From: Hexactinellida sp. DTS-2022
Taxonomy: Eukaryota > Porifera > Hexactinellida
Direction: 5' to 3'
Length of the DNA stretch: 64,000 bases
Assembly (NCBI GenBank): GCA_028753945.1
Contig: JAPNXP010000002.1
Coordinates: forward strand, 7,874,001 to 7,938,000
In this document: positions 8,178 through 56,600 of the stretch, one piece after another
How the letters are laid out: each line of letters starts with the position of its first letter
Numbering within the stretch: the stretch's first letter is position 1
Notes under the pieces: generated by a model
Database searches by the model: none
Told to the model about the DNA's origin: nothing
What the model saw: only the letters and a program-made list of their open reading frames with translations
Program-made: the position numbers and the translations under genes

Positions 8178-8625
8178 AAAATTATCTATTTAGTATATTT
8201 GGTTTGACTAATACAGAGTTGTGATAGATATAACTCAAATATATGTATTTTTTCGTAATCCATGGTTCATCAATAACAAATTTGTCGATTTTTTAAAAAT
8301 CATGTAACTTTCGTTTAGAAAATCTGATTTGTTCAATTTTTGAGATCTGATAACTAATAAGATAGTAGTCATTGTTCAAGTTTAGCTACAAAGGATTACA
8401 TACATGTTAATGGCGTTATATCGATTTAATCACAATGTATGTGTCATCACTTTTTGTCCGAATCCTTAAGTAAATTTTTACAAAAATTCTAGCATATTGA
8501 TATATTATTGTGCTCTATTTGGATTTTAAATTAATAGGTTCTAAATATTAAATACAAAGAACTACTGTGTATGCAATATTTCTGCAAATCACTCCGGAAG
8601 TCTACGGTTAAATAAAATATTAATA
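8178..8625 (+). repeat. Copy of a dispersed repeat shared with 11.3-13.5 kb
   Basis: Reads in parallel with 13055-13493, with long shared blocks such as TTTGAGATCTGATAACTAA and AGGTTCTAAATATTAAATAC. It is inverted relative to 11344-11590. It starts immediately beside the broken gene at 7187-8165, so its insertion may have cut that gene. Confidence 0.8.
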
Positions 8626-8763
8626 TTGTTTCGCATAGGAATATGTTATTTTCATATTAGCCCAGGAATGTAAAAGTCAAACCGAAGTTAATTCACTTTC
8701 AATTCAAATAGAAAGTGAAAATGGGATTTTTCTATTTATACCTTGTGCCCCTATGCTGTAGAG

Positions 8764-10008
8764 CAGTGGTTCTTAACCGGTGGGGAATCACCCACTAGTG
8801 GGGAATTGAGGATCCTCAGGTGGGGAATGGAGCTTCAGGCTAAAAAGTTTACAAATCATTAACAGTAGTTTGGAATGTTTTCTTGGAATTCAACCTGTTC
8901 AATTTATTGTCTTAAATTATACTTGTACTAATTTTTAGACTTCTAGGTTGAACTCGTACGTATATTAAACAGGTATTCACTGCTTCCAGACCATAACTGC
9001 AGTGTTGTCCAGACAAATTCTGAACTTCTATTGGGTTCGAGCGCCAAAAATAATTCGCACGCTCGCTACGCTCGCCCGTTGTTCATTATAAACATTGACA
9101 GGAGAAATAGTTTGAGATTCCCTTGACAAATCAAATATTAAAAATCAAAATGCTCAATCTAAATTTAGTGTGGAAATCATGAATCAATATGATTCTATAC
9201 TGATTTGAGCACCTCTGGGAAATCCGTGCGAACGGAGTTACCTGGGGTGCCAAATCCATATAAAATCAAATTGAAATATCGCCTTGACTTGCTTAGAAAA
9301 TTTAGATTGCCATTTTCAAGAAATATCCTTTGCATAGGAATAACACGCTGTTCTGCTGGTCCGGCTATGGTCGGAGTAGTTTTCATTTGCTTAACTATGT
9401 TATATTACAGGATGGTCTAGTTTGGCTGGACTACAGAAAATCTTTGGCCGGAGAATTTCCAAAGCCTTATTTTCCCTTGTGTGAAAAAAATGCTCTATGA
9501 ACATATAGCAGGGCTGTAAATAAATAATTTATCGTTTCTTAAATCAAATCATTTGAATTTTCAAATAATATCAAATCAATTGCCACTCAATATTCCCGTG
9601 AATTAATTCAAATTACATCAAATATTTGAAATATTTGGCTTGATTTACAACCCTGATATATGGTTATGTATTTATAAGTGTCACTGGAACAGAGGCGGCG
9701 CGAGGGTGGGACCAAGTGGGGCCTGTGCCACACCTAAATTAAGTGTGCCCCACATCATTGATGTCAGTGTGCCCCAGTTTAACAGCCTGTGCCCCACCTT
9801 TGACGCAATTGTGCCCCACCAGTGGCGGCTGGCTGGCGCCGCCAGTGCACTGGACTAATAACAATAATATTAAAAGAGATATTATTAAGTGTACCATAAA
9901 GTATATGAGCACAATTTACTTCTTAAATTATGTTCATATTTAGGTGGGGAATAGAGTAACTAGGTATTCCAAAGTGGGAAATAACAGAAAAAAGATTAAG
10001 AACCACTG
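8764..10008. mobile_element. hAT non-autonomous element, TSD ctgtagag
   Basis: The 1245-bp element starts CAGTGGTTCTTAACC and ends TTAAGAACCACTG, with ctgtagag duplicated at 8756-8763 and 10009-10016. TGGGGAAT blocks recur just inside both ends. No transposase frame. A second MITE is nested at 9690-9847. The TA in the middle of the duplication fits the Buster-type target preference described for hAT elements. Confidence 0.95.
9690..9847. mobile_element. Nested hAT-like MITE with GTGCCCCA repeats
   Basis: Ends CAGAGGCGGCGC and GCGCCGCCAGTG are imperfect inverted repeats. The flanks cactggaa (9682-9689) and cactggac (9848-9855) match at 7 of 8 bases. The 158-bp interior is four degenerate repeats built on GTGCCCCA, much richer in G and C than its surroundings. 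Confidence 0.7.
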
Positions 10009-23180: not shown

Positions 23181-23559
23181 TGATTCGTTTTAACTACCTC
23201 CATTATAACAAATAACTTTCTATTTATGTAAATAGTTTAATCTAATACTTATTTCGCTACAGTAAAATTCAACTAAGTTCCCAGATATTATTCAAGTTAT
23301 TATAATGACAAGCTGCTCGTCCGCGCTACGCGCGTTCTTACAACTTGCACTCGGGCCTGCGGCCCTCGCTTGTATTAAAGTAAATGCTCTTTCTGATGTT
23401 ATGCCGTTTATCCAGCGATGTTCGCATAATTCGTTTATTATTTAACTGCTCCTTCAATTTATAACCAAATCTCCTTGCCAAATTTCAGTTATATAATTAT
23501 CCCTTATAATTACAGTTCCGAATTAAAGTGCAGACGGACAAATAATCATCGCGTTTAAT

Positions 23560-23650: not shown

Positions 23651-23723
23651 TGTGTGAGAATCTAAAAGAGACAGATGTAAACTTCGATTTAAAAGAATAA
23701 AATGAAAAAGAAAACTCACCAAA

Positions 23724-24084
23724 TTATAAGTTAATATTTAGCTTGATTTTATTGCCTGATATGAGCTTCATTACTTCTGGGTTCTAAGGTGATTATAATT
23801 AAGCACAATAGTATATTGATATTATTAAATATAAAAGTGATTTTGCGGTAACTTACACCAATAATATCCTTCAATAGTTCAATTTTTTTAAATTGCAATG
23901 CAATATTGGCGTTCCCTCTTTTCCGCTTCCTGGAAACTGCAGCGGGCGGTTCTTCTTTTGCGGGAGGTTCTTCCTCGATATCTTTGTTATCAGGGTTATC
24001 AGAGTTATCAGGATGAGTCAATTCTTCCTCAGGGATTATAGAATTTAGTGAGAGTTTATCCATCTTAGCAATAGTATTTTGCAT
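23724..24084 (-). CDS. Accessory small gene of Helentron copy 1, two exons
   Basis: Exon 1 is 24084-23857 and exon 2 is 23783-23724, joined across a 73-bp phase-0 intron (GTAAGT...CCTTAG). The product is 95 residues. It has an acidic, proline-rich first half (PDNSDNPDNKDIEEEPPAKE), then SRKRKRGNANIALQFKKIEL, a likely nuclear localisation signal and short basic-amphipathic segment, then NPEVMKL from exon 2. Copy 2 has the same organisation with the intron at the same codon, so the gene model is supported by comparison. A second in-frame Met (MDKLS, codon 8) could be the start. A TATA-like box lies just upstream at 24111-24120. Function unknown; a nuclear DNA- or protein-binding accessory factor would be a guess. 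It is not a domain I recognise. Confidence 0.65.
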
Positions 24085-24110: not shown

Positions 24111-24120
24111 TTTATTTATA
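24111..24120 (-). promoter_or_regulatory. TATA box of the copy 1 accessory gene
   Basis: TATAAATAAA on the minus strand, about 27 bp before the first ATG. The matching position in copy 2 has TATAAATA, which supports a dedicated promoter for the small gene. Confidence 0.5.
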
Positions 24121-24975: not shown

Positions 24976-27900
24976 CTACTTATAATAAAATGGATCGAAG
25001 TGATAGAGCTCTTCGACATTGTGTAGTCGGTGCAGCACTACACAAAGTTTCTGGCCGCTGAACACAGGGTTACACAGTGTTGTAGATGACAATGTGTCAT
25101 GAGCATAGATAGTGTCTACTCAACACATATTAGGATTAGTGTTAGTAGCGTTGATTACTAATACATCTATCTCCGCTAGAGAACCCAATATAGCTAATAC
25201 TACATCAGTACCCCATTCATTTGGTTTGCTTATGACGTCTAAATGATTGTTCAAATCCTCTTCACAGCTATTATGTAACATTTCCATTACATTATAACAG
25301 TTGTAGAGGGCTGTTTCGAAATTTACGAATCAATTGAAATTTTAATTGTTCATATATTGCCTCTGAACCAAAAATAATATGTGCTAAGGATCGGTAAAGA
25401 CAATTACCATCTCCAGTTACAGGGCATAATTCAAAATTGTGACCAAACAAATGTGATAGCCTTGCTTCAAGCGATGCGTAGTAATTTTTTAAAGTGCTAT
25501 CAACAATAACCATTTCATTATTTCGGATGGATAGTATTGGTTGTACACTAACCGGCCAAAAGTATTTGAACAGCAATAATTTGTATTCAGATATTTGAGT
25601 TTATACCAGCATTATAACAATAGTAGATTCTACAAAATGGCTATTTACATGAAACAATATTTAAAGTATATTAAAAAAGCAAAATTTTCGAATTTACATT
25701 TTTATGGAGGAGTTAAACTCATTAAATATATAATTAGCTCATTAAATAATTAATTTGCGATAATTAAGATGCAATGTTAATATATTAATTCTGATAGCAG
25801 ATTTGAATTCCACATAGTTAAATTACTCTAAGTGCATAATTTCAAATCAATCCCAATATTTTCTACTATGATACAGCCACATTTCCATTTGTGCCACTTA
25901 TGCCACAAGTGGCACGTGGCAGAAACACTTATGCCACTTCGTGAATATTTTCTAAATTTAAATGAAATCACAATATTTTCATACGTATATCTATAATAAG
26001 TTGTTTATAGTCATTTCAGAGTAGTTTAGATAGCAGTTAATAAGTTACCGGGTGAATATTGTGTGTGCATTAAAATCCCTATTGTTCAAATACTTTTGGC
26101 TGGTCAGTGTATTTCCATATCAAGAGTCATTGCTATATGGTTACGCATAAGTAGGGAAAATTGGTTAACAGAACCTGTTAGAGATTCTATAAATTCATGT
26201 TGTCGAACTTGAGAGATAGGCAAACTTCCCTATTTTTCAGTATTACCTGGAACCAAGTCTGGCTCAGAATCAGAAAATGCATTCTCGAATGACAAATCCA
26301 TCGGGGAACAATATCCAGAGTTTTGGTCGGAGGGAGAAATGTTTCCCAGATGATATTGAAGTACCTCCTTATAAACTACATTCCGTACCGAAACTCCACC
26401 AGAAGCAGAGTAAGTTCATCCACATACCATTACTTTCAAGCCGCGAGGATTCTGTACTCTGCTGAGAGCAACATATAATTGTCCATGACTAAATATAGCA
26501 TTCGGAGTAGGTAAAAATATACCAACTGAATTAAGACTCTGGCCCTGACAATTTGTTAATAGTAATACAAAATGCAGGACGAATTGGAAATTGTTTTCGC
26601 CTGAGAACAAACGGGAAGTCTGTCTCAGAAGGTATCATCACTATGCGAGGTATGAATACTCGTTTGCCACGATGTGTGCCAGTTGCAATTTCAGCATCAA
26701 TAACATGGCTTGACATTTCAATAATTGTTAAGCGAGAGCCATTACACATTCCTTGAGTGGGATCTAGACTACGCAAAAGTATTACTGAGGCGTATTTCTT
26801 AAGGTAGAGACGATGCGGAGGTAAGCTAGCAAGCGTAATGGAATTTAAAAACTCAGTTCGATACATGGCAGCCTGATCTGAATCTACAGAATCCGCACTC
26901 AAAAATACTTTAGCCTCACCGGGTATTATATTCATCACAAACTCATTGATTTGATCTGTGGTGTCGTTCTTAGGATACATAATTATGCGGGAAGTGATAT
27001 AATCACGATTTTGATAATTTTCCTTAATATCAGAGTAGATAGTTGTGGCCAAGTCTGCGAAAGTTTCACCACGTACTATAAATTTCTCATTTATATGAAC
27101 CATATTATCTTCGTTTTGAGGTTCAGTACCATCACCTACTCTTAGCAATAAATCTGAGAATTCGCTCACTTCACAGAATCCTGAGAAGATAATCGCTGAA
27201 GACGCATGTTGATCGTTAATTTCATCACTTTAACACAACGCAAAAGTGGTGACCTATTTAAACAGGATGATACAACTTCTGATCTAGTTCCGTGCCTAAT
27301 CACTGGTAGAATTTGACGAAAGTCACCTCCAAATACGATAACCTTTCCACCAAAAGGTTGGTCACACGAACAAAGGTCTCTCAAACTCCGATCTATACAC
27401 TCAGCAGCATGCCTATGTATCATTGGGGCTTCATCCCATACTAATAACTTGGCAGATTGTATTAGTTTAGCTAAGGCGCTCTGTTTAGAAATGTTACACA
27501 CGGATAACTCATTCACAGGAATTGGAATCTTTAGCCTGGAATGAACAGTCCTCCCCGCCTTGCAGCAGGAGAGCTGCTATAAAAAGAAGAAGCCATGGCT
27601 AGTTCGATCTGACCCGGTGATCGGACTTTAGCTAATATATTGTTGTACAGAAAGGTTTTGCCAGTACCTCCGGGTCCATCAATAAAAAATGCTCTCTGGG
27701 CAATCATTGGATCATTGATTGCCTCCATTATGCATTCAAAAACATCAGTTTGATCAGAGTTAAGCCCACAGATATTTTCCTCAGCAACAGTTAATTGTTC
27801 AGTGACATTATAATCCATTTCATATCGAATTATGCTAGGTTTGTCATAGGGACTCTTGGCAAGAGACGGAAGTGGCATTCCAGGAAAATCTGATAGTGAT

Positions 27901-30900
27901 TTACCCTGTTGTTCTAGTCGATACTGAATATCTATTAATGCCTTGTTAGTCAAGTGCTCGTTCAATTCGAGATTGGGAGCTAATACTCTAGCTTTAAATA
28001 AATAGTCCTCAGACAGGGAGACTTTATGCTTATTCCACAAAGCTAGTGGTTCAGATGGCTCGTTGAACAAAAGAATAGTCACACACAGCTGGCGTAGCTG
28101 TGTTGGTACTTCACTTATGGCAGCTGCTGTTAAGCAGTCATCAGATTCCTGATCATCCTCCAACAGGCCTCGTCTACGGGCTGCTTCTTTAAAGGTATCA
28201 CACACGGTGCCATCAGGGAGAGTGCGTATATCTTGAAAACTGGTACAGCCCGTGACATGATTGAGAAGCATTCTTAAGAAATAACGGTCACCGTCACCTG
28301 GATGAGCTGAATAGACACGGCCTATCACGGTGCCATGCCGTTTGATCCGCTCCTTCCATTACGATCAGTCTTATCCCATGCAAATTTATTGGGAAAATTT
28401 GTATAAGTCAGTTCCCTTGCACTCGCAAATTTTTGATTAGCAACAAACCACCCAGTGAGGGTAGTGTGTTTCTGCCTACTGAGCACATCTTCTATAGAAG
28501 CACTTTCAGCAAACACTACAGGCTGCTGATCTTCCAGGTGCAAAGCTAGTCTCATCACATGTGGAAAATTTGCGTGGAGATCAAATGCAAAGAGACGATA
28601 GCAAGCTTCAGTAGCAGACGCGTATCGAGCTTCTAGATAGTTTACAATTTCATCTACGTTCTTAGTCTTACCTCTTTCACTACTGTCGGCAGTATGGAAC
28701 TCTACAATGGCTCTATCATGACCCTTGTACACGTATTTGTATAGATATTTAACTGCACTAACTGTACTGCAAATCTCAACATTAATATGTGCATTGTATT
28801 TCAGAAGTAAATAAGGATTGTATGGAACAACCGAACGATTGTCTAATTCAATACCATTTACTTGTACAGTTCGTTTGTTATCACGACGTTGGTATATAGG
28901 ATAGCTATCGTTGCCTGTTGTAGTACATTCAGCAAAAGCTTTTGGATATTTTTCGTGCATTTACCATCACGCATGCAAGGAGCGTTCCTCCTTATAGAGC
29001 CACACGGACTATGCATCATACAACGCTTAACAATATCGTGAAGCCTGGGGTTATGGATTGGGTCGGGAATTTCCGCACATACAATTTTGTCATAATCTGA
29101 TGGTTCTCCAGGTTTATCGCTCTTACATAAAATTACCAAAAATTTGTGCATGGGGAATGCCCCGTTTTTGGAATTCTATTGTATAAACATCCGCCAACGG
29201 TTTACCTAATACGTGTTTGTTACAGATATCATTAAGTAATTCTTTCAATTTCATCTTAAACACTCTAATAATTAAATCAGGACGATCGGTCGCTTTTTGG
29301 TTTCCTGATAAGAGCAGAGGATATCTCCTCCCATTTAGGATTGCATGTAAATGTAATGAATAAGTTTGGCTTACCATATTTTCCTGACTATAGACATACT
29401 GTCCTAGTATAACTCAAACATTTGTCGAGGGCTACCTGTGAAGGAAGAAGGCAATATCACTTCACGTCCCAAATCTCTAGGATTAGATTCGCCAGCAGAA
29501 ATAGCATCAGCAAGGCCACTGTATAGATCTACTCTAATCTTTTGCTGATTGCACTTAATATAGTTCAGTCGCTGTTGCTCCACTTTAGCAAACATATCCA
29601 CCAAGTACTGATGAAATATTCTGCCAAACATGTGTAGATAGCTCAAATCACTTCACACCATCAGACGGGAAGAGTAATATTCCAATGCAGTCACATCTCC
29701 TTTCCCTCTGCTGTGAGAGATTTTCAGATGCCAGCCATTATCTCCTGAGGGGAACAAAAGTACATAATGCAAAGAATCATACGCGCAATTGCACTCGGTT
29801 ATACGCTGTAAACCCCCTGTACGTGCATGTAGCACTATGTCTCTGCTGGCTACGCCTTCTGAATACCCGTCTCCGGGCATGATGACGGCTACCTCTGGAG
29901 CAGCAGGGGCGTTATAGCGTCTGTGATCAGGGACACCATCTTCTCGGATGATCATCCTAACATCAGTTCCTCCTTGCGCTCTCATTAACTCTATTCCGTG
30001 TCTGAAGTACTGCACATAAGGATTGACCTCGTGCATTAGCGCCTGCAGAGCTTTCAGTTCTGGCAGAGATGCCTCTCCCAGATGCCGCTGCCGGTTTTCT
30101 ATCTCGCCCTCAGCTGTGCCATCATGGATGTATATCTGGGCAAAGGAGGGAGCCTCTCCCTCTCTGGGTGTCAGCTGTCCGATATAATGGTGTACAACTC
30201 CCTGGTTACGGAAGGTGTACACTCCACGTCTCGCGCTAGCAAGTTCCTTATCGAGGTTTACTCCCAGCGAAGCAAAGGCTAGAGCTGAGTTGTAGGCTCG
30301 AATTTTATCTCTGAACTCTCTCCCTCGTTTGTCAGAAGTAGTCAGCAGATGCAGTAGCATCTCAGGCGGTGAGACTAACGGGGTAGAACCACCTTTCCAA
30401 GTCCACAACAGAGGGGGAACTTGTTGCATTTCTTAGTGCTACTGGTAAGCTTTTTGCTCTCCCAAAACTTCGCGCCACAAAGTGGACAAATAAATTCCAA
30501 TGCACCAAAAGAATTTTCTTTGATTAGATTATCGTTAAATTCAGATGCAAGAACGGAACGCGCAATATTGAGATAACTATCATTACAATTACCTTTGGTC
30601 CTTAAGGACTGGTATTTTCTTTGATAATCTAGACGGGCAATTCGCCTCTCATTACTCTGCTCCTCGAAATGAGACTTTTGATAATCTAGCCGGCGCTTGC
30701 GGCGGCTAATTAGTTCTTCACAGCTCTCGCTTAAATAGTAAGCTTTCTGATATTCTAGCTGCCGTTCAAGACGGGTAGCTTGCCAATCTGAACTCTGATT
30801 ATCACGGTAAGATAGTTGATATTTATGTTGTTGACCGAGACGGGATTCTCGATCGTCTGAACTCTGATTATCACGATAAGATTATTGATAATTATGTTGT

Positions 30901-31562: not shown

Positions 31563-31654
31563 TTGGATTTTTGAATAACCGTGGTTAAGCAAAAATGATT
31601 TGAATCATATTATTCAAATCATTTTTGCTTAACCACGGTTATTCAAAAATCCAA
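31563..31654. repeat. Perfect palindrome, 43-bp arms and 6-bp loop
   Basis: The left arm 31563-31605 starts TTGGATTTTTGAATAACCG and the right arm 31612-31654 is its exact reverse complement. The loop is catatt. It begins two bases beyond the (CAAA)n tract that marks the 5-prime edge of Helentron copy 1. It is not present at the 5-prime edge of copy 2. Confidence 0.95.
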
Positions 31655-31746
31655 CCACTATTCTGAATTATTCAATTAATTAATCAATTTCTTATTTGTT
31701 CATTGGTTATCTATTATAGATCATAGATATTTATTATCATCTACCT

Positions 31747-34172
31747 ATGTCTCGAAGATCTAACCCTACGAACAGTTCTCAATTAACTTTGTTTGATACT
31801 TTCAAGAGAATGAGGCAGGATTCTGAAGATGATAATGATACTATCAATGAACATCAGCAAATACAAGACTGTGACCCCTTACTTAAACTATTATTGGATA
31901 CTACAAACTCTGTTAGTTCTGGTGAAATTGCGGGAACAACGCTCCTCAGAGTACACTTACGCAAGTTTCAATTTCAGTTGTTATTCACAATGCTAATCTA
32001 CAGTCACCGTTAGATATTGCTCAAGGTCTTAATGATAAGCCTGTTCAGCCCAATCTGTATACTTGTAGTTTTCCCTTAACATTAGTGGGAACTAAGAGAA
32101 GATCATTCAATCCAGATTGGTTAATTAAATATCGTTGGTTGGAATACTCAGTAGAAAGAGACGCTGCTTTTTGTTACCCTTGTTGCTTTTTTAATACTTT
32201 GAGTGGTAGAACTGAGGAAAAGTTTACTATTGCGGGATTTAGAGACTGGAAGCATGCAACAGGCAAAGAAGTTATTATCTCCTGTCATGCAAAATGCCTT
32301 ACACACATCAACGCAATGACTTTGTGGCATGAATATAAGCAGAATGAAGAGTTAGGTACATCTGTTGTGAATTCTATCAAGTTGGCAAGAAGTGAGCAGA
32401 TCCGCCTGAACCGGCATTATATTAAGAGTGTATCGGAAGCAATACTTTTGTGCAGTCGTCTTGAAATTTCTTTTCGAGGACATAATGAATCCGAAAATTC
32501 ACTAAACAAGGGAAATTTTATTGAAATATTGCAAGTTATTGGCAAACATGACCCAATTATCCAACATAGATTCGAACAAGGCCCACAAAATGCAACTTAT
32601 CGTTCACCAGAAGTTCAGAATTCATTATTGAATATCATGGGTAACATGCTTAGAAAACAAATTTGTGATAATGTACGAAAAGCGAACTACTTTTCTCTAC
32701 TTGCAGACGAATCAAAAGATGAATGCAAGAAGGAGCAACTGGCTATCATTGTTAGGTACGTTGATGAAGAGGCAATAATTCACGAGAGATTTCTTACATT
32801 TGTTGAGGCAACAAGTCTAAATGCTCAGAGTTTGACAACTCACTTGATCTCAACTCTCAATAAACATGGATTGAATCCTGCATGTATCGTATTATTCGTA
32901 TCTCAAGCATATGATGGAGCTGCAGTCATGAGTGGAAACTGTCATGGTGTCAGCAGCGAATCAAAGAGATATATCCTAGTGCAATGTATATACATTGCTA
33001 TGCACACAAACTTAACCTGGTTCTAGTTGATTCAGCAAAGAAAATTCAACTCGCTTGGGATTTTTTCATATTGCTTGAGGCTACCTATGTTTTAATTTCT
33101 ACCTCTAAAGCAAATGTTATCTTCGTAGCAAAGCAAAAAGAGCTTCACCCAGAAAAACAAGTTTGTCAGCTACCAAAACTTTCAGATACAAGATGGTCTT
33201 GCAGACAAGCTGCTGTTAGTGTAATTTGCTACACTTACGATTCGTTGAATGCTACTTTGGAATAAGTTTCTGAGGAAATTAATCGAGCAAAAGCTGTTAG
33301 GCAACAGGCCTTCTTCTACAGATAAAGAGTTTCAAGTTTCTTCTCTTACTCATCTTGTTTGATAGGATTTTGACCTGTACTAAGAGTTTGTCAGACTGCC
33401 TGCAAAATCCTAAAGTCAATTTAGATAGTGCAGCTGATTTAGTTTCATCAACAGTGTCAACACTTGAATATTTTCGTACCGATGAAGAATGGGATAAAAT
33501 ATTCAACTATACTGAGAACATAGCCAGATCTAATCATATTGATAACACTAACTATAGACCACCGAGACAAAGACACTTTCCCCAACACTTGAAAGATAGC
33601 AATATAGATGCACCTACTGGAAGAAGGGAACCCCTTTCAAACAATCAGCAATATAAACTCAATCTCTATTTTCCTGTATTGGATGCTTTTCTGACAGAGT
33701 TAAATCGCCGTTTTAGTAGCGGCAACATTGATATCATGAGGGCAATACACTCATTTAATCCGCAATCAGTGTACTTTTTGGATCCGGTTCATATGAAACC
33801 TTTAGCACTTAATTACAATCTTGAATACGAATTGCTATGTATGGAATCAATACTAGCAAAGCGTACTCTAGGAAATGCAGAGATAAATGGTATAAATGAT
33901 TTATTTCTTAAACTCAAACCATTAAGGGATGCATTCCCAACTTTGTTAAATGCCATCCAAATTTCCCTAACGATTTCAATCAGCACAGCGGAATGTGAGG
34001 GGTCATTTTCAGCACTCAAACGTATCAAGACTTACTTAAGGACGACAAGACTAAACAAAGGCTCACAAATCTAGCCATTCTTACTATTGAAAAAGAGCTG
34101 ACAAGTCAATTATCTTTAGATGATGTTGTCACTGAATTTGGAAAATTGAATAAGAGAATTTTGCTAGCATGA
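31747..34172 (+). pseudogene. hAT transposase (TTF zinc finger, DUF4371, hAT dimerisation), broken
   Basis: The ATG at 31747 gives MSRRSNPTNSSQLTLFDTFK. After a shift near 32000, the frame 32085-33026 has NPDWLIKYRWLEYS, CYPCCFF and the Trp and His spacing of a TTF-type zinc finger, then a DUF4371-like region with LLADESKDECKKEQLAIIVR and VSQAYDGAAVMSG. A shift at about 33000 continues YIHCYAHKLNLVLVDSAKK and LSDTRWSCR. After another break, 33355-34074 ends in AECEGSFSALKRIKTYLRTT, the hAT dimerisation signature. A last shift yields TKQRLTNLAILTIEKELTSQ to a TGA at 34172. At least four frameshifts make it inactive. The usual protein length for this ZMYM1-like hAT type is about 700-800 residues, which agrees with the 2.4-kb span. 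Terminal inverted repeats were not identified. Confidence 0.88.
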
Positions 34173-34720: not shown

Positions 34721-35060
34721 TTACTCGCAGTATATATTAAATCACAATGATTTTTTGTTTTTTTTGTTTGTTTGTTTGTTTGTTTGTTTGTTCAGAATTG
34801 ATTGAGGAACTGGTAAGAGCTACGGACTTGAAATTTGGCAGGAGGGTGGGAAATAATGTTTCTAGGAACAAGTTCTAATATCTAAGAAAGATATTAATAT
34901 CTTCCCTCTCAAAAGGTGACAAAACTATCAGCTGTTAAGTATGCATTATAGAGAGCCTAACTGAGACTGCAATTTAATTGGCTAAAAAATAAACACAAAT
35001 AATTCTGGGTCAATACATTTGACAAATGAATATTACCCTACACTTTACTATTATTAATCG

Positions 35061-35125: not shown

Positions 35126-38100
35126 ATGCCCCGAATGATAAAACGCGGTCCTCAATGCAAATCACGTTTTACTAAAAACGATGCATTGTGAATGGAAATT
35201 TTGAGAATTAATGAAACAATAGAAGCTAAACAAGCCAGGCTTGAGAAGCAAAAAAAGTATCAACTGGCATATTATGTAAAACAGAGTGATGGAGAACGAG
35301 CTACCCGTCTCAGTCAACAACAAGAATTCAAATTATCTTACCGTGACAAACAGAGTGATGAAGAACGAGCTATCCGTCTCGGTCAACAACAAGAATTCCA
35401 ATTATCTTATCGTGCCAATCAGAGTGGTGAAGAACGAGCTACCCGTCTCGGTCAACAACTAGAATACCAATTATCCCACTTTGACAATCAGAGTGCAGAT
35501 GATCGAGCTACCCGTCTTGATATCACGTACAGGGGGTTTACAGCGTATAACCGAGTGTAATTGCGCTTATGATTCTTTGCATTATGTACTTTTGTTCCCC
35601 TCAGGAGATAATGGCTGGCATCTGAAAATCCCTCACAGCAGAGGGAAAGGAGATGTGACTGCATTGGAATATTACTCTTCCCGTCTGATGGTGAGAAGTG
35701 ATTTGAGCTATCTACACATGTTTGGCAGACTATTTCATCAGTACTTGGTGGCAGTGGGGCACACTAGGGGGCTCTAGGGGCGCTCAAGCGCCCCCAATAT
35801 ATTCAACGAAATTGTGTATTCATTAGAGAAGGTGATATATAATTTAATTAATATTACAATAACAAACTAGGATAATTAGGTCAGAGCGCCCCCAATAATT
35901 AGCAAAGTGACGCCACTGCTTGGTGGATATGTTTGCTAAAGTGGAGCAACTGCGACTGAACAATATTAAGTGCAATCAGCAAAAGATTAGAGTAGATATA
36001 TACAGTGGCCTTGCTGATGCTATTTCTGCTGGCGATTCTAATCCTAGAGATTTGGGACGTAAAGTGATATTGCCTTCTACCTTCACAGGCAGTCTACGAC
36101 AAATGTTTGAGTTATACCAGGACAGTATGTCTATAGTCAGGAAAAATATGGTAAGCCAAACTTATTCATTACATTTACATGCAATCCTAAATGGGAGGAG
36201 AAATCCTCTGCTCTTATAGGAAACCAAAAAGCGACCGATCGTCCTGATTTAATAGTTAGAGTGTTTAAGATGAAATTGAAAGAATTACTTAATGATATCT
36301 GTAACAAACACGTATTAGGTAAACCGTTGGCGGATGTTTATACAATAGAATTCCAAAAACGGGGCCTCCCCCATGCGCACATTTTGGTAATTTTATGTCA
36401 GAGCGATAAACCTAGAGAACCATCAGATTATGACAAAATTGTATGTGCGGACATTCCCGACCCAATCGTAATCCCAGGCTTCACAATATTGTTAAACGTT
36501 GTATGATGCATAGTCCGTGTGGCACTATAAGGAGAAACGCTCCTTGCATGCGTGATGGTGAATGCACGAAAAAATATCCAAAAGCTTTTGCTGAATGTAC
36601 TACAACAGGCAACGATAGCTATCCTATATACCAACGTCGTGATAACAAACGAACTGTACAAGTAAATGGTATTGAATTAGACAATCGTTCGGTTGTTCCA
36701 TACAATCCTTATTTACTTCTGAAATACAATGCACATATTAATGTTGAGATTTGCAGTACAGTTAGTGCAGTTGAATATCTATACAAATACGTGTACAAGG
36801 GTCATGATAGAGCCATTGTAGAGTTCCATACTGCCGAGAGTAGTGAAAGTAGTAAGACTAAGAACGTAGATGAAATTGTAAACTATCTAGAAGCTCGATA
36901 CGCGTCTGCTACTGAAGCTTGCTATCGTCTCTTTGCATTTGATCTCCACGCAAATTTTCCACATGTGATGAGACTAGCTTTGCACCTGGAAGATCAGCAG
37001 CCTGTAGTGTTTGCTGAAAGTGCTTCTATAGAAGATGTCCTCAGTAGGCAGAAACACACTACCCTCACTGGGTGGTTTGTTGCTAATCAAAAATTTGCGA
37101 GTGCAAGGGAACTGACTTATACAAATTTTCCCGATAAATTTGCATGGGATAAGACTGATCGTGAATGGAAGGAGCGGATCAAACGGCATGGCACCGTGAT
37201 AGGCCGTGTCTATTCAGCTCATCCAGGTGACGGTGACCGTTATTTCTTAAGAATGCTTCTCAATCATGTCACGGGCTGTACCAGTTTTCAAGATATCCGC
37301 ACTCTCCCTGATGGCACCGTGTGTGATACCTTTAAGGAAGCAGCCCGTAGACGAGGCCTGTTGGAGGATGATCAGGAATCTGATGACTGCTTAACAGCAG
37401 CTGCCATAAGTGAAGTACCAACACAGCTACGCCAGCTGTTTGTGACTATTCTTTTGTTCAACGAGCCATCTGAACCACTAGCTTTGTGGAATAAGCATAA
37501 AGTCTCCCTGTCTGAGGACTATTTATTTAAAGCTAGAGTATTAGCTCCCAATCTCGAATTGAACGAGCACTTGACTAACAAGGCATTAATAGATATTCAG
37601 TATCGACTAGAACAACAGGGTAAATCACTATCAGATTTTCCTGGAATGCCACTTCCGTCTCTTGCCAAGAGTCCCTAAGATCAACTTAGCATTATTCGAT
37701 TTGAAATGGATTATAATGTCACTGAACAATTAACTGTTGCTGAGGAAAATATCTGGGGGCTTAACCCTGATCAAACTGACATATTTGAATGCATAATGGA
37801 GGCAATCAATGATCCAATTATTGCCCAGAGAGCATTTTTTATTGATGGACCCGGGGGTACCGGCAAAACCTTACTTTACAACACAATATTAGCTAAAGTC
37901 CGATCACAGGGTCAGATCGCACTAGCCATGGCTTCTTCTGGGATAGCAGCTCTCCTGCTGCAAGGCGGGGAGGACTGTTCATTCCAGGCTAAAGATTCCA
38001 ATTCCTGTGAATGAGTTATCCGTGTGTAACATTTCTAAACTGAGCGCCTTAGCTAAACTAATACAATCTGCCAAGTTATTAGTATGTGATGAAGCCCCAA

Positions 38101-39979
38101 TGATACATAGGCATGCTGCTGAGTGTATAGATCGGAGTTTGAGAGACCTTTGTTTGTGTGACCAACCTTTTGGTGGAAAGGTTATCGTATTTGGAGGTGA
38201 CTTTCGTCAAATTCTACCAGTGATTAGGCACGGAACTAGATCAGAAGTTGCATCTGCCTGTATAAATAGATCACCACTTTGGCGTTGTGTTAAAGTTATG
38301 AAGTTAACGATTAACATGCGTCTTCAGCGATTATCTTCTCAGGATTCTGTTGAAGTGAGCGAATTCTCAGATTTTTGCTAAGAATAGGTGATGGCACTGA
38401 ACCTCAAAACGAAGATAATATGGTCCATATAAATGAGAAATTTTTAGTACGTGGTGAAACTTTCGCAGATTTGGCCACAACTATCTACTCTGATATTAAG
38501 GAAAATTATCAAAATCGTGATTATATCACTTCCCGCATAATTATGTGTCCTAAGAACGACACAACAGATCAAATTAATGAGTTTGTAATGAACCAAATAC
38601 CCGGTGAGGCTAAAGTATTATTGAGTGCGGATTCTGTAGATTCTAATCAGGCTGCCATGTATCCAACTGAGTTTTTAAATCCCTCACGCTTGCTAACTTA
38701 CCTCCGCATCGCCTCTACCTTAAGAAATACGCCTCAGTAATACTTTTGCGTAGTATAGATCCCACTCAAGGGATGTGTAATGGCTCTTGCTTAACAATTA
38801 TTGAAATGTCAATCCATGTTATTGATGCTGAAATTGCAACTGGCACACATCGTGGCAAACGAGTATTCATACCTCGCATAGTGAAGATACCTTCTGAGAC
38901 AGACTTCCCGTTTGTTCTCAGGCGAAAACAATTCCCAATTCGTCCTGCATTTTGTATCACTATTAACAAAGGTCAGGGCCAGAGTCTTAATTCAGTTGTT
39001 ATATTTATACCTACTCCGGAGGCTATATTTAGTCATGGACAATTATATGTTGCTCTTAGCAGAGTACAGAATCCTCGCGGCTTGAAAGTAATGGTTTGTG
39101 GAGGAACTTACTCTGCCTCCGGTGGACTTTCGGTACGGAATGTAGTTTATAAGGAGGTACTTCAATATCATCTGGGAAACATTTCTCCCTCCGACCAAAA
39201 CTCTGGATATTGTTCCCCAATGGATTTGTCATTCAAGAATGCATTCTCTGATTCTGAGCCAGACTCGGTTCCAGGTAATACAGAAAAAGAGGGAAGTTTG
39301 CCTATCTCTCAAGTTCGACAACATGAATTGATAGAATCTCTAACAGGTTCTGTTAACCAATTTTCCCTACTTATGCGTAACCATATAGCAATGACTCTTG
39401 ATATGGAAATACAACCAATACTATCCATCCGAAATAATGAAATGGTTATTGTTGATAGCACTTTAAAAAATTACTACGCATCGCTTGAAGCAAGGCTATC
39501 ACATTTGTTTGGTCACAATTTTGAATTATGCCCTGTAACTGGAGATGGTAATTGTCTTTACCGATCCTTAGCACATATTATTTTTGGTTCAGAGGCAATA
39601 TATGAACAATTAAAATTTCAATTGATTCGTAAATTTCGAAACAGCCCTCTACAACTGTTATAATGTAATGGAAATGTTACATAATAGCTGTGAAGAGGAT
39701 TTGAACAATCATTTAGACGTCATAAGCAAACCAAATGAATGGGGTACTGATGTAGTATTAGCTATATTGGGTTCTCTAGCGGAGATAGATGTATTAGTAA
39801 TCAACGCTACTAACACTAATCCTAATATGTGTTGAGTAGACACTATCTATGCTCATGACACATTGTCATCTACAACACTGTGTAACCCTGTGTTCAGCGG
39901 CCAGAAACTTTGTGTAGTGCTGCACCGACTACACAATGTCGAAGAGCTCTATCACTTCGATCCATTTTATTATAAGTAG
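35126..39979 (+). pseudogene. Helentron Rep-helicase-OTU gene, copy 2 (broken)
   Basis: Begins MPRMIKRGPQCKSRFTKNDA, then a TGA at 35189. Four Arg/Gln-rich repeats of about 21 residues follow (LSYRDKQSDEERAIRLGQQ). At 35524 the sequence jumps directly to TGGLQRITECNCAYDSLHYV, so the Cys motif and much of the Helitron-like N domain are deleted. The Rep part keeps an intact HUH motif, EFQKRGLPHAHILVI at about 36.37 kb, and the Tyr pair in YLYKYVYKGHD. The helicase has GPGGTGKT (37.85 kb), LLVCDEAPMIHRHA, GGDFRQILPV and VALSRVQNPRG. The OTU domain carries GDGNCLYRSLAH (Cys codon at 39553) and, after a frameshift near 39650 and one in-frame TGA, YHFDPFYYK up to the TAG at 39977-39979. Further breaks lie at 36219, 37676 and 38381. 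The frameshift after Walker A and the two OTU defects are shared with copy 1. Confidence 0.9.
35752..35918. mobile_element. hAT MITE private to Helentron copy 2, TSD cttggtgg
   Basis: Ends CAGTGGGGCACACT and AAAGTGACGCCACTG are imperfect inverted repeats; cttggtgg occurs at 35744-35751 and 35919-35926. Copy 1 reads straight through with one cttggtgg. 167 bp, with GGGGGCTCTAGGGGCGCTC on the left mirrored by GAGCGCCCCC on the right. Confidence 0.93.
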
Positions 39980-40759: not shown

Positions 40760-40767
40760 TATAAATA
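40760..40767 (+). promoter_or_regulatory. TATA box of the copy 2 accessory gene
   Basis: TATAAATA, 45 bp before the ATG at 40812, in the same context as in copy 1 (ATTCTATAAATA). Confidence 0.5.
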
Positions 40768-40811: not shown

Positions 40812-41082
40812 ATGGCAAACTTAAATATTAAAGAAATAGAAGCTGAACCTCAACCTGAACCTGAATTAGAAGTGGAAACTCCTGTGGAAACTAGGAAGAG
40901 GAAAAGGGGCAATGCAGAAATAGCGTTGCAGTTTAAAAAGATCCAACTAATGGAAGAAATTATTGAAGTAAGTTGTCTTAAAATCACTTCTATAAGTAAT
41001 AATACAGATATATTGTGCTTAATACTAATTACCTTAGAACCCAGATGTTATGATGCTGTTTAAATCAAGTAAATCAAATTAA
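40812..41082 (+). CDS. Accessory small gene of Helentron copy 2, two exons
   Basis: Exon 1 is 40812-40967 and exon 2 is 41038-41082, with a 70-bp phase-0 intron (GTAAGT...CCTTAG). The product is 66 residues. It has an acidic start with repeated Glu-Pro (EAEPQPEPELEVETPVE), then TRKRKRGNAEIALQFKKIQL, MEEIIE, and NPDVMMLFKSSKSN after splicing. The basic block, the IALQFKKI segment, the intron position and the NPxVM start of exon 2 match copy 1, while the acidic half is poorly conserved. No known domain recognised. Both copies being open and spliceable, although the large gene next to them is broken, is worth noting. Confidence 0.65.
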
Positions 41083-41284
41083 ATATCAACTTATAATTTG
41101 GTGAGTTTTCAAATTTTAAATTATATTTATTTTGAATCAAATTATTATAGCAGCAAATAATTATCTATTTCTTTTAGATCTACGTAAACCATATCATATA
41201 AAGTCTACGTACAGTATAACCATATCAAGCCAGTGTTTATTTAAAATTTATCTATCTATCTTTGTCTATTCGTATCTTATGTAT

Positions 41285-41420
41285 TAAATCACATTGATTT
41301 GTTTGTTTATTTTGTTCGGAGTTGATTGGGAAACTGGTAAGAGCGAAGATTTTGAAATTCGCCAGGCGGGTAGGGAATACTATATGTGTAACAAATTTGA
41401 ATGTCTAAGAAAAATATTCA
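41285..41420 (+). repeat. Partial copy of the Helentron 5-prime repeat near the 3-prime end of copy 2
   Basis: TTAAATCACATTGATTTG, then GATTGGGAAACTGGTAAGAGC and a TTTGAAATTCGCCAGG stretch parallel 34735-34880 in the same orientation. The element therefore has related sequence near both ends. Confidence 0.65.
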
Positions 41421-53469: not shown

Positions 53470-53735
53470 ATCATTACGTGAGTGCGGCTGGCTTGAAGGA
53501 GAAAGTTTTACAGCCACACATGGTAATACGATCAGCTTTGAAATAGGATTCCTTTTGCGTCACTGATCATGGAATTTCTAATCTCTATTTTTAGCCACTT
53601 CATTGCTGCTGGCTTGATGGAGAAACCATTACTGCCACACATGGTAATACGATCAGCTTTGAAATAGGATTCCTTTTGAGTCACTGATCATGGAATTTCC
53701 AATCTCTATTTTTAGCCACTTCATTGTGTCCATGT
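53470..53735 (+). repeat. Tandem duplication, 121-bp period, upstream of piggyBac
   Basis: GCTGGCTTGAAGGAG (53488) and GCTGGCTTGATGGAG start two units that share CACATGGTAATACGATCAGC and CTCTATTTTTAGCCACTTC. TGGTAA words lie at 53521 and 53642. It is a different sequence from the 121-bp array at 62.3 kb despite equal length. Confidence 0.9.
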
Positions 53736-53748
53736 GGTACCCTTCTCC

Positions 53749-53756
53749 TATATATA
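53749..53756 (+). promoter_or_regulatory. TATA box of the piggyBac gene
   Basis: TATATATA about 90 bp before the ATG at 53846, directly after the tandem duplication. Confidence 0.5.
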
Positions 53757-53845
53757 GACGATTATTTTGTGCAAATGTTACCAATTTCAATCATTCAACT
53801 ATTCAATCACACACAACACTCAAAAACACAACTCTGTCAAATCAG

Positions 53846-56600
53846 ATGGCAACTAATTTTCCCACACTCACAACTGTGGATCCGGAAGACGATCAGCTGC
53901 AGACTGATAACAATCAGAGCCTTCACCCAGCAGGCACTGCTCCAACCCAATATCAGAACGATTCCGACGATGAGTCACTGTCGGAGGATGAACGGGAAGA
54001 CGATGAACTTTACGGTCTACTACAGGCAGACTATTTAACTAACCCAGTGCCTGGCTCAACAAATACGCCTACCGCCTCGACAATTAACCCGACACTCGGT
54101 CCTTCAACAGCTAGCGAGGACGTGTCGGATAGTTTATTTACAACTAGCAGCCCCCTGTCCAGCCCTGCTAGCCAATTTGCTGGAATGGCCTTCCCACAAC
54201 TACACATTCACTCGTCCTCTCAGACAGAGATACTAGCAAGCACACAACAGTTTACCTACCCCTATCCACCACCAGCTCAAACATCTTTCGATACACGGTC
54301 AACAGGAAAACGTAGCTCAAGCCCATCCATACTCAACAGCAGAACCAAACGTACTGACTTTCGCAACAATCCAGAATCTCAACAAGTCAAACCCCTTACA
54401 ACTGTCACTTACATCGCTGAACAGATGCAACTGCAAACTAGCCCACAAATATTCACAATGCGAACCCCCATTCCAGAAGATAAGATTCCCGAGTACTATC
54501 CCGACAATTACAAAATCTGGGAAAACCGACCCATCTTCAAGCCGGATACCAATCTAAAATCACCCACAGGGCTACCACGTGTAGATCTCTATGTATACGC
54601 GATTGTTGCAAACACGGAAACAAAGTCACAATGTGAAAGAAAAAGTATCGCAGACGCCTGACCCTAAGAAACACGCCCATTGAACGATTCTATCCTGAGA
54701 TCTGGGACGCAGAGCACAAACAGCTCATAGGGTGTCCGATCCAATCCACAGAATTTCTCCAAGCACAGCCTTTCTTCCAGGAGCCATATGAAAATGCTCT
54801 ATCAGTAGACAGAAACTCACTAGATAATATCTCCAAGGTAGCACCAGCCATTCCAGAACCACTCAATCAGCTACACCCTGATCCACCATCTCAGCAGCAC
54901 ACACTGTCTCAACAAGGACGGTACCTAGTCGACTGCGAAGAACCGGTGGAATTTTTCGACGCAATCTACAGCCCACACCAAATAGAGAGCCTTCTCCTTC
55001 AGACCATACTCTACCGCAACCAAAAGGGGCTACAAAATTGGCAAGTGCCCACCTACAACGAGATGCGCTGCTTTTCAGGACTCCTCCTTTGGACATCGCT
55101 TGCACAGTTTCCAAATCGTCGAGAATATTTCCATAAATCCGCAATCTACAATCTGCCACATTTCACAGCACACACCTCGCGAGATCGTTTCGAGCAGCTA
55201 CTAACCATGTTGCACTTCACGGACAATGAAAACATCCCTCAGGACCTCGGCACAGCCAGACGCTTTGAGTCAAAACTCGCAAACCAGCTCACTGATGTCA
55301 ATCATAACTCCGCGAAACTTCTCACGACAGCCAGAGCACTCTCCATCGACGAAATGATGGTAAAGTTCTTCGGGAGGAGTGTGCTGCGTCAATACATGCC
55401 CACTAAGCCGAATAAATACGGAATAAAGTTATGGGCCATCTGCTGTGCCTTTTGCGGATACTCCTTCACCCAGAACATCTATCTCGGCAGCAGTGTACAG
55501 ACTGTGGGAGGGCGTGATGTTGTGCTACAACTAGCTGAACCCTACTTCGAAAAGGGTCATGTCATTTATTGCGATAGGTTCTTCTCGCAACTCGACCTGG
55601 CTGCCTATCTTCGCGCACGACAAACCGGCATGGTTGGAACAGCAGACATAACCACCCTCGAGAAGGATCTGAAATACCTGGTCACCAAAATGCACCCTCT
55701 AAACGGGGCATACAAATGGTACAGCTATAAGGCCAACTTCACTCATTGTACAAGGCAGGTGAAGAAAGGAAACTTGTGGCGGAAGAGCCGGTGTGCTTAC
55801 TCGTTTGGATGGATAAGAAGTATCGTACGACGAACAAACAAGTAGTATTCATCACTAACTGCATACCCGCCATTCCAACCGATCCGGAACTTCAATGCCA
55901 CCGAAAGAACATCCGACACGTAAACGGAAATTACACTCGACAGCTTATAGCGAGTCCACCTGTTGTGAAAGCATACAACTATAGGATGGGAGGGGTTGAT
56001 AGGCATGACAGACTCGTGGGACAACATACCATTCCTCTCACATCCAAACGCGGATATATCAAGATATTCTTCCACATTCTAGACTCAGCTATGGTCAACG
56101 CCTGGATCCTATTCAAAACAGCTAAGCAGGCAAACGGTCAGTGGAACACAGCTTCACAAAATAGACACACTTTGGCATGGTTCAAAGAGTGTGTAATTCT
56201 ATCTCTCTGTGGTAATTATACTTCTCGGAAAATGACATCATCCGTCCAGTTGGCACAGTCACTCTTGCCAGTACAATCGTTGGGCAACATAGTACAGCAT
56301 CGAATACAACCGACGAAACATATACCAGAGTTGGAAGGAAAAGGAGTCAGGAGGTGTCTTATTTGCAGAAAATCAAGGCGTACAGCTTGCATCACCTGTA
56401 AACAATTTTACTGTTTCGAATGTGGCAGACAGCATCTCCTTGATCTTTTGAAGCATCATAGCAAGGACGTGACTGAATCTGAATCTGAATCTCAGGAACA
56501 AGTCATAGTGCCGCCACCAAACGCAACTTCGACTCAAACCGCGTATCCGAGCTCCAGCGAAAATGATCCTGATTCACCCGAGGATGACTTCGAATATTAG
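53846..56600 (+). pseudogene. piggyBac transposase gene, nearly complete, two frameshifts
   Basis: The preferred start is 53846 (MATNFPTLTTVDPEDDQLQT), after the TATA box. An acidic, Ser/Thr/Pro-rich leader of about 270 residues ends at a frameshift near 54640. The frame resumes LRNTPIERFYPEIWDAEHKQ and leads into the DDE_Tnp_1_7 core: NEMRCFSGLLLW, SIDEMMVKFFGR (first Asp at 55348), YMPTKPNKYGIKLW, HVIYCDRFFSQLDLAAYL (second Asp at 55573). A second shift lies near 55790, then VWMDKKYRTTNKQVVFITN, YNYRMGGVDRHDRLV (third Asp at 55998), and a C-terminal CLIC-x7-CITC-x4-CFEC plus His cluster as in piggyBac zinc-binding tails. All three catalytic Asp are retained. Family members excise and insert at TTAA in the nucleus. 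Terminal repeats were not found. The two shifts look like recent single-base changes. Confidence 0.9.

Follow-up and report, generated by a model that had tools for sequence, protein, structure and literature searches.

The window, the whole 64,000-nt stretch of Hexactinellida sp. DTS-2022 DNA analysed here, carries two Rep-Helicase-OTU elements, A on the minus strand and B on the plus strand, each with a small gene. Sequences from elsewhere in the genome are given by L numbers. The features of the window were as follows:

24084-23724, minus strand: two-exon small gene, copy A, start ATG at 24084
24115..24120, minus strand: TATA box of copy A (TATAAA), 36 nt 5' of the ATG
24084-23857, minus strand: exon 1 of copy A, 76 codons (MQNTIAKM, then the linker, then SRKRKRGNANIALQFKKIELLKDIIG)
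23856-23784, minus strand: intron 1 of copy A, 73 nt, phase 0, GTAAGTTA...CCTTAG
23783-23724, minus strand: exon 2 of copy A, NPEVMKLISGNKIKLNINL, ending with a TAA stop
23662..23719, minus strand: putative intron 2 in the 3' UTR of copy A, 58 nt, TTTG^GTGAGT ... CTCTTTTAG^, suggested by a donor after the stop and an acceptor in the alignment
23308..23373, minus strand: 3' terminus of element A (66 nt, two GC hairpins), with ...GCAGCTTGT at its end
25295..30881, minus strand: broken Rep-Helicase-OTU gene of element A, its pieces in different frames
34731..34760, plus strand: 5' end region of element B, TATATATTAAATCACAATG
35204..39663, plus strand: broken Rep-Helicase-OTU gene of element B
40760..40765, plus strand: TATA box of copy B
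40812-40967, plus strand: exon 1 of copy B, MANLNIKE...KRKRGNAEIALQFKKIQLMEEIIE, the MQN start gone through a frameshift
40968-41037, plus strand: intron 1 of copy B, 70 nt
41038-41082, plus strand: exon 2 of copy B, NPDVMMLFKSSKSN and a stop, with a frameshift near the end relative to L024 and L028
41462..41527, plus strand: 3' terminus of element B

For copy A, the spliced plan put forward in the first-pass annotation (exons, 73-nt phase-0 intron and TATA box) was recovered from the DNA as predicted; another TATAAA lies 26 nt 5' of the ATG. The predicted product reads MQN, a low-complexity linker, KRKRGNxxIALQFKKI and, after the intron, NPEVMxLI...KIKLNINL. The phase-0 intron of 70–73 bp that had been described in both copies measured 73 nt in copy A and 70 nt in copy B. 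Both frames had also been called open, which held for copy A but not for copy B, where two frameshifts relative to its nearest relatives were detected. One deletes the MQN start and the other turns the C-terminal end into SKSN and a stop, while the relatives L024, L028 and L018 start with MQNTIEKM and end with KIKLNINL. A Ka/Ks near 1 between the two copies, which had been named as an outcome against the first-pass annotation, was not observed, the exon 1 core giving a dN of 0.17 with 9.5 of 11.7 synonymous sites changed. The acidic leader, previously described in both copies, had to be given up as a feature of the family, as the net charge of the linker ranged from −13 to +9 across seven sequences; the kept trait of the linker is low complexity, often built from repeats, and not acidity. 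A palindromic insert at window 31563-31680 seems to have deleted the first nucleotides of element A. Transposase-like open reading frames, which we take to be hAT-like, occupy 31926-34074 between the two elements, and further frames at 53663-56600 are presumably piggyBac-like.

We searched the genome (112 Mb, 18 contigs) for relatives of the small gene, with the best candidates scored; the DNA search returned 32 matches and the protein searches 44, 60, 61 and 26 rows. Of two marker comparisons bearing on organism identity, COX1 gave no match although 8 of 14 controls were detected, and the cuticle family gave none either, with controls equally silent, so that the latter result carries no information. 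The 44 loci used for the linkage count left out exon-2-only rows, second rows of the same locus and five low-identity, stop-containing rows (C2:3013962, C5:1277272, C13:2942043, C18:6190709 and C2:3894060). The results showed a same-strand Hel-OTU match no more than 8 kb upstream at 31 of the 44 loci, none on the opposite strand and two downstream on the same strand, the Hel-OTU side comprising 155 rows among the matches listed. Random placement on 13 of the 18 contigs gave a mean of 0.18 and a maximum of 2 in 2000 draws. The other 13 loci had no upstream Hel-OTU match. The small gene is genome-wide and exchanged between elements, which was not visible from the two window copies alone.

Helicase segments of about 190 aa defined three Rep-Hel lineages, R1 (that of the window), R2 and R3, with identities of 57–61% between R2 and R1, 70–72% between R3 and R1, and 64–66% between R3 and R2. 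Form 1 of the small gene accompanies R1, forms 2 and 4 accompany R2, and form 3 accompanies R3. Form 2 reads M(D/E), NPKD-type repeats and KRGAAETALQFKKIKILNDILQ, then the splice GTATGG...TTTAG, then GNTQIKNLKLTVAF; form 4 has PPAT-type repeats, NRGKRGG and QQLAFRMLDVLDKVIK, then the splice GTAATTT...TTTTTAG and a basic exon such as PKQQFKKKKKRLV. Form 3, located 3' of the OTU domain, has a TATA box and an ORF running from acidic to RGG-like repeats, which ends with RAQAWRARVMGVLEYVINLN in L055 and L056 and is interrupted in L057; a splice site was looked for in form 3 and none was visible. The GC-rich repeats of these three form 3 sequences are open in more than one frame. Among the Rep-Hel copies checked downstream, L058 (C12:914976, a 1476-aa frame with one stop) has lost the small gene, and L059 and L060 carry form 4, the linker and core of L059 lying in different frames. 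L030 and L031 (C9:54557 and C18:199264) have a linker of many SSPGSKQ/SSDSKQ repeats and an exon 1 about twice as long.

The relationship among the forms was assessed on the protein core. Form 2 cores were 46–58% identical to the first form 1 core, and form 2 is nearer to form 1, which sits on R1, than to form 4 of its own lineage R2. With the underlying alignment picked by eye, permutation showed order-specific similarity of the 15-residue helix between forms 1 and 4 (p 0.0008) and between forms 2 and 4 (p 0.0002); when form 3 was compared with forms 1, 2 and 4 in turn, p was 0.0143, 0.0251 and 0.0023. Aligned by hhalign, the form 1/2 core matched that of form 4 weakly (probability 5.4%, P 0.007), so the case for homology of form 4 draws on its position and on the plan of the gene. 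On these grounds we take forms 1, 2 and 4 to be one gene, and form 3 is likely a relative of theirs. A placement of forms 2 and 4 on different Rep-Hel families was rejected, as the helicase segments place both in one lineage.

Evidence for a selected, spliced gene came from substitution patterns and splice sites. In form 1 (10 pairs, five types), the exon 1 core had a pN/pS of 0.15, compared with wrong-frame values of 0.70 and 16.9, and exon 2 had one of 0.25, compared with 1.26 and 1.75. The spread of variable sites over codon positions was uneven for the exon 1 core (8/1/16, p 0.001) but not significantly so for exon 2 (8/6/13, p 0.24). Form 2 gave 0.16 for exon 1 and 0.49 for exon 2, the latter value including L034, which is out of register there through a one-codon length change, and the form 4 core gave 0.14 against 0.92 and 16.9 in the other frames (nine copies). 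A chance ORF was rejected, low pN/pS being confined to the spliced frames of forms 1, 2 and 4. All 30 modelled introns of forms 1 and 2 end in TTAG, with starts of GTAAGT (18), GTATGG (11) and GTATGA (1), and their lengths leave remainders of 1, 0 and 2 on division by three in 16, 7 and 7 cases. Intron length thus does not preserve the frame, yet the spliced frame of exon 2 is kept, which counts for splicing. In forms 1, 2 and 4 alike, the helix is immediately followed by the phase-0 donor.

Promoter motifs and complete models were also counted. TATAWA was present at −32 to −36 in 16 of 17 form 1 copies with an MQN start, L019 being the one without it; in form 2 it was found at −57 to −66 in 6 of 13 rows, several of the other rows being too short 5' to show one. 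A TATA box was present at −31 in 3/3 form 3 sequences, and 7 of 10 form 4 rows had one at −30 to −57. A single script applied to 58 sequences (both window copies plus 56 loci, with form 3 left out) yielded models with a start and a second exon for 33, comprising 15 of form 1, 10 of form 2 and 8 of form 4; 19 sequences were incomplete and 6 lacked the core. Three of the 33 models were flawed: exon 2 of L026 is truncated, L068 has a stop ahead of the splice site, and L066 has a start that derives from other sequence. The gene plan and the selection on both exons, like the linkage to Rep-Hel-OTU and the mosaic history described below, are read directly from the DNA. At this level, good support exists for the earlier proposal that the element has a second gene, spliced and under a TATA box of its own; the remainder of that interpretation stood only in part, the name Helentron being loose and the statement on open frames wrong for copy B.

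An intact element was used to define the host transposon. The L009 element, bounded by A|TCTTATATATT and GAGCAGCTTG|T, covers 7.7 kb, with the small gene about 0.4–0.8 kb from the 3' end. Its Rep-Hel-OTU ORF is intact (1890 aa, L009:1767-7436, minus strand) and comprises STPR repeats, Helitron_like_N, Pif1 and OTU domains; it is the sole frame of at least 300 aa on the gene strand. Pfam matches to PF14214 (E 5.5e-63) and PF05970 (E 7.6e-79) identified the Rep and Pif1-type helicase that mark a Helitron, and the OTU domain matched PF02338 at residues 1746-1849 (E 2e-6). The STPR-type 23-residue repeats (PF21107) form three stretches at the Rep N-terminus, at residues 54-126 and neighbours (E 3.6e-5, below the curated cut-off); the literature search found no papers joining Helitron and STPR. 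The first ~120 nt of the element reappear as a diverged direct repeat near the 3' end (window 34731-34850 and 41278-41418; L009 oriented 2092-2200).

The ends were compared with published accounts. Helitrons, as characterized in PMC4067079, have a 5' TC, a 3' CTRR, a hairpin about 11 nt inside and insertion between A and T. Three copies with the structure A|TCTTATATATT...hairpin...GAGCAGCTTG|T fitted the TC, the A/T flanks and the hairpin, but their CTTG differs from CTRR. The elements share with Helentrons and Helitron2 a Rep-Hel with an OTU domain, which is common though not obligatory in Helentrons, and 3' hairpins. Helentrons and Helitron2 have asymmetric or subterminal inverted repeats; here, the longest exact inverted match between the 5' 80 nt and the 3' 160 nt was 7 nt in L009, with none of 7 nt or more in L020 and L027 (exact repeats only). 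The Helentron name derives from an AP endonuclease according to PMC4067079, and no AP endonuclease appeared in the Pfam result for the one ORF tested, the intact 1890-aa ORF of L009. The earlier designation as Helentrons agrees with the OTU domain but not with the missing endonuclease; lacking the latter and any exact terminal inverted repeat above 7 nt, these elements should not be regarded as strict Helentrons, and the label calls for reserve. They resemble the Phytophthora proto-Helentron in domain content and in Helitron-like ends, as that element is described in PMC4067079. There, proto-Helentron-Pi of Phytophthora infestans is an endonuclease-less Rep-Hel element with Helitron-like termini and extra genes, encoding hypothetical proteins of 218 and 266 aa and a SET protein of ~153 aa; the likeness is one of description. 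Other comparison papers concern fungal Helitron2 (PMC5148889) and deubiquitinase domains in Helitrons (PMC9741609).

Comparison of small genes with their backbones revealed repeated exchange. In R1, the Rep-Hel-OTU frame after the first 700 nt differed between L009 and L020, L016, L026 and L027 by a dS of only 0.03–0.09, whereas the small genes of L009 and L016 differed at 19 of 23 synonymous sites. Small-gene dS reached 1.69 for L009 against L024 (the type of L026) and 1.65 against L022 (the type of L027), so that both measures come from the same pair for L009–L016 only and the L026 and L027 values are those of same-type sequences; in this comparison the dN of L033 is inflated by a two-codon insertion in exon 2. 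The N-terminal STPR segment was also diverged from that of L009 in R1, with a dS of 0.50 (48 codons only), 0.43 and 0.28, and 0.03 in the exception L027. Most BLASTN breaks fell in the stretch that starts at the OTU stop (reference 8138) and runs to the opening codons of exon 1 (9030-9043).

The exchange was clearest in L027. Relative to L009, its 5' end was 98% identical, the STPR part 86%, Rep-Hel-OTU 97%, the near spacer 96% and the next spacer 77%; exon 1 reached 55%, intron plus exon 2 73% and the 3' UTR 96%. In 50-nt bins, identity was 96–100% at 8451-8700, 0–80% at 8701-9400 and 96–100% at 9401-9650; further out, the bins at 8401, 9651 and 9701 gave 69%, 74% and 33%, and over the first ~300 reference bases the 0% bins reflect non-overlapping slices, the segment comparison giving 96% there. 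The sharp rise at 9401 places the right edge of the block at the stop codon; the replaced block measures 0.7 kb and includes promoter and gene. Fast protein evolution was rejected as the cause of this divergence, because the intron and upstream DNA have diverged along with the exons; segment replacement by recombination fits. L022 and L025 carry the same block, which may therefore reflect a single event.

A second lineage gave a corresponding picture. When four form 2 elements of R2 were compared with five form 4 elements, the helicase segments were 95–100% identical (dS 0.01–0.04) in 20/20 between-form pairs. The small genes on these near-identical helicases align weakly and have the linker, basic block, helix and splice position in common. 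As judged from these comparisons, the small gene behaves as an exchangeable cassette, swapped on near-identical Rep-Hel backbones in two lineages. Such exchange on fixed backbones means that the elements evolve by cassette replacement and that a phylogeny based on Rep-Hel alone would give a false picture of how the remaining parts of an element arose.

What is kept in the protein is a basic block of KRKRG or RGG-like type together with a helix and a short tail, whereas the linker is free in length and charge. The structure predicted for exon 1 alone from the single sequence showed one helix at residues 58-75 (block pLDDT 85 and 77), with a mean pLDDT of 70, a pTM of 0.22 and low confidence ahead of the helix. 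An amphipathic helix was rejected (hydrophobic moment p 0.25–0.71 in seven sequences). Pfam searches of nine small proteins gave nothing informative for helix or tail and no RPA, Myb or other known DNA-binding domain; matches to Extensin_1 in the repeat linker of L049 (E 6.6e-6, below the cut-off) and to Collagen in the form 3 repeats (34.9 bits, above the cut-off of 27.2) were taken as low complexity. The PDB search was likewise unconvincing; its top row for the window protein, at E 9e-4, spanned 19 residues and was a designed helical repeat protein. With these searches uninformative, nucleic-acid binding is a guess from composition; the nuclear role suggested earlier draws on the KRKRG-type block, which resembles a nuclear localisation signal. 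In viral contigs, 4 and 42 pattern matches were obtained and none was confirmed as a relative. No comparable gene was named in the listed titles or abstract openings of the open-licence PMC literature. Accessory proteins beside a transposase are familiar from the Myb-like second protein of Harbinger transposons and from the regulators TnpA and VANC; the small protein is alike in this position, but Pfam detected no Myb domain in it.

We tentatively propose that the small protein, the product of a second gene of a group of Rep-Helicase-OTU rolling-circle transposons, may well be a nuclear, nucleic-acid-binding partner of Rep-Hel. Its own TATA promoter would give a short transcript, and removal of the phase-0 intron would yield a protein of ~80–170 residues in the spliced forms. 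We infer this transcription and splicing, as well as nuclear entry, nucleic-acid binding and partnership with Rep-Hel. The linker of low-complexity repeats would be free in length, the KRKRG or RGG-like block could serve nuclear entry and nucleic acid contact, and the helix of ~15 residues with the short tail might contact the protein itself or the Rep-helicase. By analogy, it may aid transposition much as has been proposed for the RPA-like protein that a second ORF encodes in other Helitrons, those of plants among them, and in Helentrons, namely by binding single strands (PMC4067079, PMC4683698). The kept block, helix and tail, the RPA-like ORF elsewhere and the single frame of at least 300 aa in L009 together suggest an RPA-like role. 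The mite Helentron RPA differs in being 358 aa long and intron-free, with RPA70 DNA-binding domains A and B (PMC4067079), whereas the small protein is spliced and without a Pfam RPA match. Recombination would shift the gene between elements as a unit, which would leave near-identical Rep-Hel genes with long-diverged small-gene versions. Helitrons may need partners beyond Rep-Hel, and this small second gene, kept by selection and present in three Rep-Hel lineages of the genome, offers a concrete candidate for such a transposition factor or for a regulator.

The exchange pattern keeps alive a different role, that of a trans-acting regulator of element activity, either a repressor or an anti-silencing factor, although we consider it rather unlikely. 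If versions did not cross-react, a rare one would escape the control of resident copies, which would explain gene exchange on a fixed backbone. Consistent with this, the gene alone was replaced in L027 between 250-nt flanks of L009 type, four diverged types (A–D) occur with almost identical Rep-Hel-OTU genes, and, independently, the very different forms 2 and 4 sit with 95–100% identical helicase segments. However, the conserved part is under strong purifying and not diversifying selection, the variable part is a low-complexity repeat, and the A-to-D swap in L022, L025 and L027 was possibly one event amplified later. It is unlikely, too, that the accessory gene is an allelic cassette whose versions would each set an identity group, for mutual control or escape from host silencing, as plasmid incompatibility genes do by analogy.

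A reading in which the small protein and Rep recognise the element ends, with the 5' end, STPR repeats and 3' segment as a varying specificity set, appears distinctly unlikely. The 5' end with the STPR segment and the 3' segment did diverge between types while the catalytic core did not, but L027 combines L009-type ends with a different gene, which means that a given gene type is not tied to particular ends, and the 3' terminal motif is identical in types A–D (found in 13/18 sequences). Helitrons capture genes, and capture of a host gene by an ancestral Helitron that carried it along would agree with the intron and with the loci that have no upstream Hel-OTU match; it is nevertheless very improbable, given three Rep-Hel lineages with the gene in the same place and with a TATA box, and no stand-alone host copy recognised among the best search candidates. 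That the frame is open by accident, within 3' DNA conserved for noncoding reasons, as the fairly conserved intron (71–79% for L009 against other types) and the non-significant codon-position result for exon 2 alone might suggest, is extremely improbable in view of the low pN/pS in spliced frames only. The partnership with Rep-Hel is the reading we retain, on a tentative footing.

The 66-nt 3' terminus recurred in at least 40 perfect genomic copies, with 40 of the 746 first-look candidates scored; such a number suggests that non-autonomous elements form a large set.
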